Shown here: positions 17,707 to 22,794 of the stretch, piece by piece
How positions within the stretch are numbered: position 1 is the stretch's first letter
Layout of the letters: every line of letters starts with the position of its first letter
NCBI GenBank assembly: GCA_903855945.1
Contig: CAIOAK010000198.1
Coordinates: 1-34,056 of the forward strand
Direction of reading: 5' to 3'
DNA: 34,056 bases
Source of the DNA: an uncultured Anaeromyxobacter sp.
Lineage (GTDB): Bacteria; Myxococcota; Myxococcia; Myxococcales; Anaeromyxobacteraceae
Made by a program: the position numbers and the translations under genes
Notes under the pieces: model-generated
Seen by the model: only the letters and a program-made list of their open reading frames with translations
What the model was told of the DNA's origin: nothing
Database searches by the model: none

Positions 17707-18036
17707 ATGGAATCGCACGTCGAGTGTACGCAGTGTGGCGTCCTGATGACGACCTGGTGCGCCGACGGCTCGCCCACCCGTTACTACCAGTGCCCGTTCT
17801 GCAAGCGGACGCTCTGCTCGGCCTACGACGAGGTCTTCCAGCGCGGCGCCCTCGCCCGCCGGGTCGTCGCGCCGGTGCGCGTGCCTGCGGCCTCCATCCC
17901 CGAGGCGTCGCGCGAGGACAAGCGCTGGCACGAGGTGAAGGGGCGCGCCAACCGCTGGTTCGCTCGGCTCGAGGCCGAGGGATCACGCTGCGCCCCCGCG
18001 GTGGCGGTGGCCGTCGCCGCGCGCGTTCCGGCCTAA
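17707..18036 (+). CDS. Small zinc-ribbon protein, unknown function
   Basis: The 109-residue product has a compact Cys-rich N-terminus: Cys7/Cys10 and Cys29/Cys32 form two CxxC knuckles, the pattern of a zinc ribbon, with extra Cys at 18 and 37. The middle contains KRWHEVKGRANRWFARLE, a charged probable helix, and the tail is Ala/Val-rich. Similar small proteins occur in Myxococcota, but I know of no assigned function; a nucleic-acid or protein adaptor role would be a guess. There is no good ribosome-binding site, and the likely promoter is very close to the ATG. Its TAA stop overlaps the stop of the convergent gene on the other strand. Confidence 0.7.
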   Translation: MESHVECTQCGVLMTTWCADGSPTRYYQCPFCKRTLCSAYDEVFQRGALARRVVAPVRVPAASIPEASREDKRWHEVKGRANRWFARLEAEGSRCAPAVAVAVAARVPA

Positions 18037-19445
18037 CCCGGAGCGGCGTGCATCGCGTCCAGTACCCGCACCATCCGTTTCATCACCCGCTCCGGAGTCG
18101 AGGCTCCCGACGCGGCCTCGTAGACGGCCGCCGCGACCGCGTGAGCCGCGTAGGCGCCGCGCGCGTACCTCCCCACCGACGGGGTCGTCCCGGGGCCGTC
18201 GTCGGTGCCCGCACTCATCTGCCGTCGGAGCGTCGCCACGACGGCCTCGTCCGAGTCCTTCCAGTCCTGGATCTCTCCCAGCGACTTTCCTTCCAGTGAA
18301 TCGAGATGCGTTCGAGCGATGGCGCGGGCCACGGCGGCGGCCGACGCCTTCGCCACCTGGGGCGTGACCACCGTGTCTCCGAGCCGGATGGTGCCCAGGT
18401 CCCGATCGGCCTCCGCGACCAGCCTGTCGGCCCAGCGCCCCGCCCCCTGGAACGACAGGAGCCGGACCGTCTCCGCGGCGAGGTAGACCCGGGCGATGTC
18501 GGCCGGGTGCGGGTCCTCCTCTCGACCGACGTTCCGGAGCGCCGGCGTTCCCCGCCACGCGCCGTTGAGCGCCCGGAAGTAGCCGAGCATTCCCACCGCC
18601 GATGCGGGCCCCATGTTGAGGACCCCCATGACGTCCGCCGCCGACTCATCGACCCGCTCCGACCAGTAGCGGGCGATGGCCGGGTCGAGCCCGGCCGCCA
18701 GGATCTCCTTCTCCACGGCGCCCGAGAGCTCCTCGCGCATCCCGTCGTCCGCGACCAGGATGTCGTGCCCCGCCGTCTCGTGCGCGAGCGCCGGCCAGGC
18801 GAGGAGCCCTCCCGACGCATTGGCCGCGGGCAGGCTCACCACCGCCGCCTGCACGCCCAGCGTCTCGGTGACGTTCGCGGGCCAGGTGTACGGGCCGGCC
18901 TCCGCGCTCCCCCACCGCACCACCGGGGTGGCGACGCCGTGGTCGGGTGGATGGGCTCCGCGCCGCTCCTCGGCCGAGAGGAACCCTTCGTAGAGGTCGC
19001 CCACCACCTCCTGGAAGGCTGCCGTGGCGCGGGCCTCGTATCCTTCCCCTTGCTGGAGGACCGACTGGGCGACGTCGAGGAGGAGGCGCGCCTCCCCTTC
19101 CCGCTCCGTGTCCCGGAACAGGACGCCCGCGAACCCGCGCGGACCGAGCTCGTCGAGCCTCCGGAGGAGCGGCTCGGCCACCGCCTTCCGGACGTCGGCG
19201 GGAAGCCGGGCAGCCGCCCGCTCCAGCCTCTCCCGGAGCGGGGCGAAGACGGTGGGATCGGCAGGACCGTCCTGCTTCGACAGCGCCGCCTGCCAGGCAT
19301 CCGTGACGCAGGCACGGAGCCCCGCGAGCGAGGTCGGGTCGGGCGGGCGCAGCAAGGAGACCGACGCGAGAGGCACCGCACCGCCGGGATCGGGGGCGTC
19401 GTCGATTGCCGGGGAGCGTGAGGGGAGAGCGGGACCGATGAACAC
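18033..19445 (-). CDS. Unrecognised protein with HExxxH...ExxxD metalloprotease-like signature
   Basis: I do not recognise this 470-residue protein. A GTG at 19445 with a perfect GGAGG 5 nt upstream marks its start; the open frame runs on further but has no better start. No signal peptide or membrane segment is obvious. The clearest feature is LAHETAGHD (220-228), with His222, Glu223 and His227, followed 40 residues later by DESAADVMG (266-274). The arrangement resembles gluzincin peptidases (HExxH plus ExxxD), but one extra residue separates the two His. Most of the rest looks alpha-helical and Ala-rich. It could be a metal-dependent hydrolase, or a degenerate one that only binds. It is divergent from the dehydratase operon and separated from it by 180 bp. 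Confidence 0.75.
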   Translation of the reverse strand: MFIGPALPSRSPAIDDAPDPGGAVPLASVSLLRPPDPTSLAGLRACVTDAWQAALSKQDGPADPTVFAPLRERLERAAARLPADVRKAVAEPLLRRLDELGPRGFAGVLFRDTEREGEARLLLDVAQSVLQQGEGYEARATAAFQEVVGDLYEGFLSAEERRGAHPPDHGVATPVVRWGSAEAGPYTWPANVTETLGVQAAVVSLPAANASGGLLAWPALAHETAGHDILVADDGMREELSGAVEKEILAAGLDPAIARYWSERVDESAADVMGVLNMGPASAVGMLGYFRALNGAWRGTPALRNVGREEDPHPADIARVYLAAETVRLLSFQGAGRWADRLVAEADRDLGTIRLGDTVVTPQVAKASAAAVARAIARTHLDSLEGKSLGEIQDWKDSDEAVVATLRRQMSAGTDDGPGTTPSVGRYARGAYAAHAVAAAVYEAASGASTPERVMKRMVRVLDAMHAAPG

Positions 19446-19457
19446 GTGGACCTCCGT

Positions 19458-19625: not shown

Positions 19626-20723
19626 GTGGTGCGGGAGAACTACATCCGGCGGCAGCGGGAGGAGCACGGGCGGCGCGCCGTGGCGGTGCTCCCGATCCAC
19701 TACCCGAAGGAGCTCCTCACGGCGCTCGACCTCCTGTCCGTGGAGGTCTGGGGGCCGCCGGGGGCTCCCCGGAGCGATGCCGCGGGACGGATCCAGCCCT
19801 ACGTCTGCAGCGTGGTGCGCAACGCGCTCGCCTTCCTCGCGTCGGGGGGCGCCGACGTCGTGGACGCCGCGCTCTTCCCCCATACCTGCGACTCCATCCA
19901 GCAGCTCGCCACGCTGGCCCACGACTTCGGGGGCTGGAAGAAGCCCGCCCTCACCTTCCTTCACCCCAAGGGTGAACCGCGCCCGAGCTCCCGCCGATTC
20001 GTCGCGGCCGAGCTGCGCGGGCTGGCGTCGAGGCTCGAGGAGGTGGCGGGCCGGCGACTCGACCCCGACCGTCTCGCGGCCGCCATCCAGCTCCATCGGG
20101 AGATCGACCTCCACCGCGCCGCGCTCCTCGACGGCCGGGCCGGGCTCGACATGGACGACGCAGAGCTCTACGGGCTGTTGCGCCGCGGGGAGTGGCTCTG
20201 GCCCGAGGAGCACCGTGCCGAGCTCGTGGCGGCCCGCTCCCGGCTCGACCCGGCCCGGCGCCGCCCCGGTGCGCCGGTGCTCGTCACCGGCTACGTCCCG
20301 GAACCCATCGCCACGCTCGAGATCCTGAACGCTGCCGGCGCCTTCGTCGCCGCCGACGACTACGCCGCGGTGGGGCGTCGGATCGCGCGGCAGCCCGACG
20401 GCCCGATCGGAGACCCGTGGGAGGCGCTCGCCGACCGGCTCGCCGCGGTGCCCCCCTGCCCCACCCGCGCGACCGATCAGGACGCGCGGATGCGCCACCT
20501 CGTGTCGCTGCTCGACCGGAGCGGCGCCCGGGGCGTCGTGATCCACGTGGTGAAGTTCTGCGAGCCGGAGCTCTTCGACGTCCCGGCCATCCGGCGCACC
20601 TTCGCAGCGCGCGGGGTCCCGCTCCTCTACCTGGAGGGGGAGCTGGAGCGGCAACTCTCCGGGCAGGCGGTCACCCGCATCGAGGCCTTCGCCGAGATGC
20701 TCGGCCAGGGGGGAACCACGTGA
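19626..20723 (+). CDS. 2-hydroxyacyl-CoA dehydratase / benzoyl-CoA reductase family, smaller subunit
   Basis: The 365-residue product resembles the HgdB/BcrC-type subunit of enzymes that push a low-potential electron into an acyl-CoA: 2-hydroxyacyl-CoA dehydratases and ATP-dependent benzoyl-CoA reductases. Likely 4Fe-4S ligands are Cys61, Cys88 in PHTCDS and Cys312 in KFCEPELFD. The length is normal. The start is a GTG (a second GTG follows directly). The next gene starts within its stop codon (GTGA overlap). The order small subunit, large subunit, activase resembles class I benzoyl-CoA reductase operons (C-B-A/D), but only one activase is present, as in dehydratases. The substrate is unknown. 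Confidence 0.85.
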   Translation: MVRENYIRRQREEHGRRAVAVLPIHYPKELLTALDLLSVEVWGPPGAPRSDAAGRIQPYVCSVVRNALAFLASGGADVVDAALFPHTCDSIQQLATLAHDFGGWKKPALTFLHPKGEPRPSSRRFVAAELRGLASRLEEVAGRRLDPDRLAAAIQLHREIDLHRAALLDGRAGLDMDDAELYGLLRRGEWLWPEEHRAELVAARSRLDPARRRPGAPVLVTGYVPEPIATLEILNAAGAFVAADDYAAVGRRIARQPDGPIGDPWEALADRLAAVPPCPTRATDQDARMRHLVSLLDRSGARGVVIHVVKFCEPELFDVPAIRRTFAARGVPLLYLEGELERQLSGQAVTRIEAFAEMLGQGGTT

Positions 20724-22033
20724 TCCTCCGACGCCTCCAGTACGAGCTCGCGGCGCGGGCGGTGGGGCCGTTCCTCACCGCGCTCGACGACTGGCAGCGC
20801 CGCGCCAAGGGCACGAAGGCACGGACCGGACCGTTCAGCCCGCCGCTCGAGTCGCTGCGGAAGCTGAAGGACATGATGACGGTCCACTACCTCTCCGGGC
20901 GCTACGCCGACGGTGCGGTGCCGGTGGCCTGGGTCACGAGCGGCTTCCCCGTGGAACTGCTCCGGCCGCTCGGCTTCCACACCGTCTACCCGGAGAACCA
21001 CGCCGCCATGTGCGGTGTGCAGCGGATCGTGCCGGAGCTCTCCGACGCGGTCGAGGCCGAGGGCTACTCGCGCGACCTCTGCAGCTACGTCCGCTCCGAC
21101 CTGGGCTCCCTCGACACCGGCCGCTCCCCCGCCGGACGGCTCCCCCGGCCCGACCTCCTCGCCTGCTGCACCAACATCTGCCAGACCGTCCTCTACTGGT
21201 ACCGGGACCTGGCGCGCCGCTTCCAGGTTCCGCTCCTGCTCGTGGACACCCCCTTCGTCTACGGCGAGCCCACCGATCACCAGATCCGATACGTGGCCGA
21301 CCAGCTCGAGGAGGGGATCGAGATGGCCGAGAAGGTGGCCGGCCGGAAGCTCGACCGGGCCGCCCTGTCGGAGGCGGCGCGACTCGGCCGCGACGGCAGC
21401 CAGCTCTGGGGCGAGTGCCTGGAGACCGCCCGCAACCGGCCGGCCCCCTGGACCGGCGTGGACGGCTTCTTCCACCTGGGCCCCATCGTGGCGATGCGCG
21501 GCACCGAGGAGTGCAACGCCTACTACCGGATGCTCAAGGACGAGCTGCAGGACCGGGTGAAGCGGGGCATCGGCGGCCTGCGCGGCGAGGAGAAGCACCG
21601 GCTCCTCTGGGACAACCTGCCGGTCTGGTACGCCACCCGCGAGATCACGACGCTGCTCGGAAACGGCGGATTCAACTTCGTCTGCACCACCTACACGAAC
21701 GCCTGGGCCGAGGCATCCAGCCTCATCGATCCCGCCGATCCCATCGTCTCGGCCGCCCGCACCTACTCGATGGTCATGCTGAACCGCGACCTCCCCAACA
21801 AGCTGCGGCTCCTCTCCCGGATGACCGGGGAGTTCGGGGCCGACGGCGCGGTCCTCCACAGCGACCGCTCGTGCAAGCCCTACTCGATCGGCCAGGTGGA
21901 CCTGAAGGACCGGCTCGCCTCCGAGTACGGGGTGAAGACCCTGCTGCTCGAGGCAGACCACAACGACCCGCGCGCCTGGGCGAGCGAGCTCTCCTCGAAC
22001 CGGCTCACCGCCTTCATGGAGAGCTTCGGGTGA
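20720..22033 (+). CDS. 2-hydroxyacyl-CoA dehydratase / benzoyl-CoA reductase family, larger subunit
   Basis: The 437-residue product pairs with the upstream subunit; family members bind acyl-CoA next to a 4Fe-4S cluster. It shows the family motif YPENHAAMCG (90-99), DLCSYVR (Cys121), CCTNICQTVLYWY (Cys149, 150 and 154), and DRSCKPYS near the C-terminus. Length matches BcrB/HgdA-type subunits. The GTG start overlaps the previous stop, and its own stop overlaps the activase start, so all three are translationally coupled. Sequence alone does not tell dehydration of a 2-hydroxyacyl-CoA from ring reduction. No ring-cleavage or beta-oxidation genes lie next to it. Confidence 0.87.
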   Translation: MILRRLQYELAARAVGPFLTALDDWQRRAKGTKARTGPFSPPLESLRKLKDMMTVHYLSGRYADGAVPVAWVTSGFPVELLRPLGFHTVYPENHAAMCGVQRIVPELSDAVEAEGYSRDLCSYVRSDLGSLDTGRSPAGRLPRPDLLACCTNICQTVLYWYRDLARRFQVPLLLVDTPFVYGEPTDHQIRYVADQLEEGIEMAEKVAGRKLDRAALSEAARLGRDGSQLWGECLETARNRPAPWTGVDGFFHLGPIVAMRGTEECNAYYRMLKDELQDRVKRGIGGLRGEEKHRLLWDNLPVWYATREITTLLGNGGFNFVCTTYTNAWAEASSLIDPADPIVSAARTYSMVMLNRDLPNKLRLLSRMTGEFGADGAVLHSDRSCKPYSIGQVDLKDRLASEYGVKTLLLEADHNDPRAWASELSSNRLTAFMESFG

Positions 22034-22794
22034 GCGGAGCCGCCATCGGCATCGACGTCGGCTCGACCACCTGCAAGGTGGTGGCAATCGACGCGGCGGG
22101 GAACATCCTCGACCGGCGGGTCGAGCCCACCGACCCACGCATCGAGCGGCAGGTGGAGCGGCTGGTCGGGGAGCTGCGCGCCGCGGCGGGACCCGACGCC
22201 CCGCTGGGCGCCACCGGATACGGGCGCAAGCGGGTACCGGGCGCGCGCGCCCTCACCGAGATCACCTGCCACGCCCGCGGCGCCTTCGCCCGGGCCAGGC
22301 GGGCGGCGGTGCTCGTGGACATGGGCGGCCAGGACACCAAGGTCATCCGCATCGGCCCAGCGGGCGAGGTGATCGACTTCAACATGAACGACAAGTGCGC
22401 CGCCGGCACGGGCCGATTCCTGGAGGTGATCCTGGGACGGCTTCAGGTCCCTTTCGATGGGCTCGCCGAGCGGGTGGCGGCCGCGCCGCGCGCCGTCCCG
22501 GTCTCGAGCACCTGCACCGTCTTCGCCGAGAGCGAGGTGATCTCGCTCGTGGCCGCCGACGAACCGCTCGACGGAATCGTGAAGGGGCTCCACACGGCGC
22601 TGGCCTCGCGGGTGGCCGCGCTCGCGCGGGGCACGCAGGCCGGCGACGAGGTGCTCATGAGCGGCGGCGTGGCGCTCAACGGCGCCATGGTGGCGGCGCT
22701 CCGCGAGGCGCTCGCGCGACCTATCCGGGTGCTGCCCGATCCGCAGCTCGTGGGGGCGCTCGGGGCGGCGCTGTCGGTGGTGGCGACGCGGTGA
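22030..22794 (+). CDS. ATP-dependent acyl-CoA dehydratase/reductase activase
   Basis: The 254-residue product is a BadF/BadG/BcrA/BcrD-type (HgdC-like) ATPase of the ASKHA fold. It shows phosphate-binding GIDVGSTTCKV (7-17), DMGGQDTKV (97-105), and two Cys, 123 (NDKCAAGTGRF) and 162 (SSTCTVFAESEV), that in characterised activases hold one 4Fe-4S cluster between two monomers. Hydrolysis of ATP drives one electron into the dehydratase/reductase. A single activase suggests a homodimer, as in 2-hydroxyglutaryl-CoA dehydratase, rather than the AD heterodimer of benzoyl-CoA reductase. The stop lies one base from the stop of the convergent sigma-54 activator gene, with no terminator between them. 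Confidence 0.92.
   Translation: MSGAAIGIDVGSTTCKVVAIDAAGNILDRRVEPTDPRIERQVERLVGELRAAAGPDAPLGATGYGRKRVPGARALTEITCHARGAFARARRAAVLVDMGGQDTKVIRIGPAGEVIDFNMNDKCAAGTGRFLEVILGRLQVPFDGLAERVAAAPRAVPVSSTCTVFAESEVISLVAADEPLDGIVKGLHTALASRVAALARGTQAGDEVLMSGGVALNGAMVAALREALARPIRVLPDPQLVGALGAALSVVATR

Follow-up and report, generated by a model that had tools for sequence, protein, structure and literature searches.

A conserved HExxGH protein family without a domain model, probably of gluzincin-type metallopeptidases

The gene and its neighbours

The window, the whole stretch of 34,056 nucleotides of Anaeromyxobacter DNA that we analysed, carries on its minus strand an open reading frame (18033..19445) that we assign, from the frame and its homologs, to a putative gluzincin-type metallopeptidase. 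Translation of the window frames gives a protein of 470 amino acids, read from a GTG at 19445 to a stop at 18033; the plus strand of the same interval, when translated, does not encode this HETAGH-containing protein. A Shine–Dalgarno-like GGAGG (19451..19455, minus strand) precedes the GTG with a 5-nt spacer. Upstream of the GTG the same frame stays open a long way; most homologs align from approximately residue 30–40, which makes the 470-residue start plausible. The GC content at codon positions 1, 2 and 3 (0.78, 0.54 and 0.89) fits a GC-rich coding frame. By eye, no signal peptide is apparent at the N terminus, and the protein is therefore assumed to be cytosolic. Most of a C-terminal segment, MHDxNPxWGPLxVxHPGD, that is conserved and present in most of the family is absent from the window protein (window 18033–18100) and its closest Anaeromyxobacter relatives; these members still keep all of the catalytic residues proposed below.

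The gene is flanked by a convergent 109-amino-acid frame and a divergent pair of genes for the D-component of 2-hydroxyglutaryl-CoA dehydratase (HGD-D). The 109-residue protein (window 17707–18036) contains CxxC pairs, has no Pfam match and is retained next to the gene in two genomes close to the source genome. The two HGD-D genes are adjacent (window 19626–22794) and are followed by a frame that, by eye, is a BadF-like activator ATPase. The downstream small protein, a class IV aminotransferase, SpoIID and an AMP ligase are kept beside the gene in two closely related genomes but not in more distant ones. Across phyla there is no conserved neighbourhood, sharing being confined to genera, and none of the neighbouring genes points to a substrate. 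On two Paenibacillus plasmids (L061 7433–9386 and L060 7748–9362) the gene begins 28 bases past a histidine phosphatase gene, a homolog of which was not found near family loci on the genome contigs examined.

Conserved motifs and distribution

The original prediction had singled out H222-E223-x3-H227, followed 40 residues after H227 by E267-x3-D271, and had proposed as a check that the HExxxH and ExxxD residues be invariant among homologs. The sequence bears out the arrangement, and the check was passed in an alignment of 48 bacterial and archaeal sequences (homologs are approximately 40–72% identical). HETAGH (residues 222–227; 18765..18782, minus strand) is invariant in 48/48 at all but its two x positions; the family consensus is HE[TV][AG]GHD, with the variants HETAGH, HEVGGH and HEVAGH. 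H222, E223, G226, H227, D228, W261, R264, E267 and D271 are present in every aligned sequence, as are N277, R291, H313, P314 and R319 in all 47 that reach that far. This invariance shows that the active site is real and not a product of chance. E267 and D271 belong to ESAAD (residues 267–271; 18633..18647, minus strand), part of DESAAD (266–271), in which the position preceding E267 is usually Asp and sometimes Glu or Gly. Conservation also marks DPHPADIAR (residues 311–319; 18489..18515, minus strand) and, ahead of the active site, GPYT (residues 184–187; 18885..18896, minus strand), which is invariant or nearly so, overlaps a short strand assigned by DSSP (186–188) and might be an element of the substrate cleft. 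No Cys occurs at the nearly invariant positions of the alignment. A reading of HETAGHD as an HD-phosphohydrolase motif was dropped, as there is no conserved upstream His.

A scan of GTDB species genomes returned 32 loci. The bacterial hosts are Anaeromyxobacter and other Myxococcales, Brevibacillus and another Bacillota genome, Burkholderiales, Aquabacterium, Nitrospirae, Acidobacteria, Verrucomicrobia and Bacteroidetes, and the archaeal hosts are Methanosarcinales/Methanothrix and Nitrososphaerales. A full or nearly full-length member is present in 22 of the 99 genomes related to the source genome (source included), and three Paenibacillus plasmids each carry one, annotated as a hypothetical protein. 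In the P. polymyxa plasmid records the gene is annotated as two hypothetical pieces, which suggests a broken copy.

The protein had been predicted to match no recognised family, and this was confirmed by Pfam and NCBIfam scans with zero matches even at E = 10 and by searches of PDB sequences, with the single sequence (phmmer) and with a profile, that gave no meaningful match. Scans with PADLOC and PHROGs found no family above threshold, the viral contigs searched held no relative, and no mention of the string HETAGHD was found in the literature searched. A weak match to phrog_27243, a phage family of unknown function (E = 0.048; residues 211–324, window 18474–18815), may mark a phage protein related to this domain. 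The family is conserved in numerous phyla of bacteria and in two groups of archaea, lacks a domain model and is a hypothetical protein wherever we saw an annotation. We consider it a widespread and unnamed family, its members probably zinc enzymes and most likely peptidases, for which neither Pfam nor NCBIfam has a model. With the active site of this unmodelled family now named, the family becomes testable.

The HExxH sister family and the predicted fold

Among the 99 related genomes, three Myxococcales loci match only approximately residues 220–334 of the window protein (around 30% identity, E of about 1e-4), and their motif, HEIGHN, is an ordinary HExxH. A search with one of these HEIGHN proteins brought in more relatives, with HEIGH, HEVGH or HEAGH, and returned the window gene at E = 6.7e-6. 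Alignment by HHalign of 27 HExxH proteins with the HExxGH family gave a probability of 99.2 (E = 1.4e-18, 252 columns) and placed a gap inside the motif (HETAGHD versus HEI-GHD). Judged by sequence, this sister family from Myxococcota (L056, L062–L078 and L080–L089) is clearly homologous to the HExxGH family: the homology extends over the catalytic domain, with the strand, HE..GH, W..E..[AS]D and HP....R in the same order, whereas the motif is one residue shorter (HEIGH, HEVGH or HEAGH) and the N-terminal regions differ. The sister family, when scanned, had no Pfam or NCBIfam model either. Its members L062–L078 and L080–L089 are uncharacterised, metallopeptidase-like proteins in open frames of 423–770 amino acids.

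A midpoint-rooted tree of 57 sequences, 27 of them with HExxH, gathers the 30 HExxxH proteins in a single clade (support of 0.83). From the position of the alignment gap, the extra residue is an indel of one residue within an otherwise ordinary gluzincin motif, and the simplest reading of the sequences is one insertion into the HExxH helix, with HExxH taken as the older state because it is more prevalent. The HEIGH and HETAGH relatives form a natural pair for asking what an added residue does and how a zinc helix accommodates it, DPP III being the chief precedent known for such tolerance.

An AlphaFold model of the full-length protein, built with 31 sequences, has a pLDDT of 88 and a pTM of 0.87. 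In this model a strand (residues 200–206 by DSSP, the AVVSLPA region; 18828..18848, minus strand) lies shortly ahead of the active-site helix, and a helix at 265–278 follows, which is the gluzincin order. DSSP splits the active-site helix into 216–223 and 225–232, so that it is broken at T224, after E223 and before H227; the local pLDDT of residues 221–230 averages only 78, and the helix break is not secure. A model of residues 138–412 alone was worse (pLDDT of 76.5) and had an unbroken helix, and its VIA matches were a mixed set that included IrrE and DUF885. The original prediction had offered three explanations for the extra residue, and the first, a bulge in the helix, is favoured, in that the full-length model breaks at 224 and it is the poorer domain-only model that does not.

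The full-length model had no Foldseek match at E ≤ 0.001. The top VIA match was the M13 peptidase TfPepO (Z = 6.4, 214 aligned, rmsd of 7.5), followed by M13 Zmp1 (Z = 6.0, 195, 4.8), the DUF885 proteins 3iuk (Z = 5.3, 186, 5.3) and 3o0y (Z = 4.7, 176, 5.3), ZMPSTE24 of M48 (Z = 4.6, 167, 7.7), Corallococcus DPP III (Z = 4.0, 221, 6.0) and an M1 aminopeptidase (Z = 3.8, 148, 4.8). According to VIA's own notes a Z below 8 may reflect a common arrangement, and all values here (at most 6.4) fall in this non-diagnostic range. It is telling that each of the five highest matches is a known or, for DUF885, putative metallopeptidase of the gluzincin kind, where DUF885, 3o0y included, is presumed by us to be of this type; we take this as support and not as proof. 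Two features of gluzincins can be recognized: a variant of HExxH, here the invariant HExxGH with its homologous HExxH family, and a candidate downstream Glu ligand in an ExxxD helix, with E267 and D271 of all 48 sequences falling on helix 265–278 of the model. Conservation and model together support the earlier description, a putative metallohydrolase akin to the gluzincins that has an ExxxD helix.

Proposed mechanism and comparison with known metallopeptidases

We infer a metal, its ligand geometry and a peptidase activity: the protein is likely to be a soluble, single-metal (probably zinc) gluzincin-type metallopeptidase, of a family unnamed in the libraries searched. In neprilysin, the zinc ligands are H583, H587 and E646, and the base is E584. 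D650 is a second-shell residue, the transition state is stabilised by D709-x-H711, and R717 binds the substrate backbone and forms a salt bridge to D650 (PMC7822871). D271, D311-P-H313 and R319 follow one another as do D650, D709-x-H711 and R717 of neprilysin, and part of the spacing agrees as well. The spacing of D311-P-H313-P-A-D-I-x-R319 is that of DPHSPxxxR in the M13 proteins of related genomes, in which the Arg stands six residues past the His, and the sister family has HP....R; on these grounds we propose the set H222, H227, E267, E223, D271, D311, H313 and R319. H222 and H227 of HETAGH would bind the metal together with E267, and E223 would be the general base that activates water. D271, in the second shell, would buttress R319 and one of the ligands; H313, acting as a pair with D311, would stabilise the tetrahedral intermediate; and the substrate backbone would be held by R319. 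The residue that the family has gained over its HExxH relatives, after E223 and before H227, would be accommodated by distorting the helix beside the invariant G226, as in DPP III and TldD, and a Gly before the second His may ease the bulge.

A gluzincin-like metal site could also serve an enzyme other than a peptidase, for example a metal-dependent hydrolase acting on small amides, esters or some conjugated metabolite. Such an enzyme would be in keeping with the lack of matches to any peptidase family profile, with a NAYY-type motif missing from the family and with the absence of a conserved neighbourhood pointing to peptides, but we consider it unlikely, as the second-shell Asp, the DPH and the Arg, as well as the nearest structural matches, are of the peptidase type. 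There is very little to recommend a non-hydrolytic metal protein, such as a helical di-iron or 2-His-1-carboxylate iron enzyme built on E146/D150, H222/E223/H227 and E267/D271: although the model is mostly helical and several acidic and His residues are invariant, the HExxH sister family, the strand ahead of the HE helix and a VIA list headed by gluzincins, not by ferritin-like folds, speak against it. We find scarcely credible an unprecedented metal site, with HExxxH on a regular helix (the domain-only model has no helix break) or with His222 as a non-ligand, given that HExxxH with both His as ligands has been solved in DPP III and TldD, that HExxGH or HExxxH is established in these and in TMCP/MATCAP, which leaves the 'new metal-site class' of the original prediction unsupported, and that H222 is invariant and aligned to the first His of the homologous HExxH proteins, which disfavours its suggestion that this residue is not a ligand.

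The gluzincin-type metallopeptidase that we favour can be set against four families with related motifs, all of which have separate genes in the source genome (M49, M13, MATCAP and TldD). HExxxH was already known before the present family (PMC9820243), and within M49 both six- and five-residue motifs occur with the same zinc site (PMC5805324). DPP III of M49 (PF03571) has HExxGH with the conserved Gly (HEVLGH in related genomes) and a downstream Glu ligand; unlike the window family, which does not conform to it, it has EExxA[ED] as its second motif, and it is longer. The PF03571 profile gave no Pfam match at E = 10 and an HHalign probability of at most 12%, the HHalign targets for M49, M13 and MATCAP being alignments built from related genomes. 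M13 (neprilysin, PepO and Zmp1; PF01431) shares ExxxD, D-x-H and an Arg six residues after the His, in the same order, but is larger and has HExxH and NAYY where the window family has HExxGH, and its ligand Glu stands 61 residues from the first His, as against 45 in the window protein; the PF01431 profile had no Pfam or HHalign match. In TldD both His of HExxxH are ligands, the helix is distorted around the extra residue and a Cys is the third ligand; the protein works with TldE (PMC5810440). PmbA/TldD proteins of related genomes, the source genome included, read HEAIGH, but the Cys ligand and an unrelated fold set them apart. TMCP/MATCAP is a carboxypeptidase of the gluzincin clan with HExxxH (PMC10499314); MATCAP/TMCP (PF08014; HEGLWH in related genomes) differs from the window family in its EEG third-ligand motif, and its profile had no Pfam or HHalign match.

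Given the differing ligand spacing and the lack of a match to the M13, M49 or MATCAP profiles, the window protein probably works like these enzymes and is not filed under any of them. DPP III, TldD and MATCAP are all established metallopeptidases; the motif is genuine, and what is new to databases is the family and not its metal chemistry. M49, TldD and the window family all have a Gly immediately ahead of the second His; they have no sequence relation that could be detected, M49 being the one of the other two that was compared by profile. We lean towards a new peptidase family, distinct from both M13 and M49, in which HExxH became HExxGH through a one-residue insertion across the whole lineage, separately from DPP III and TldD. 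If this is true, HExxGH, with its Gly before the second His, is a recurrent convergent solution.
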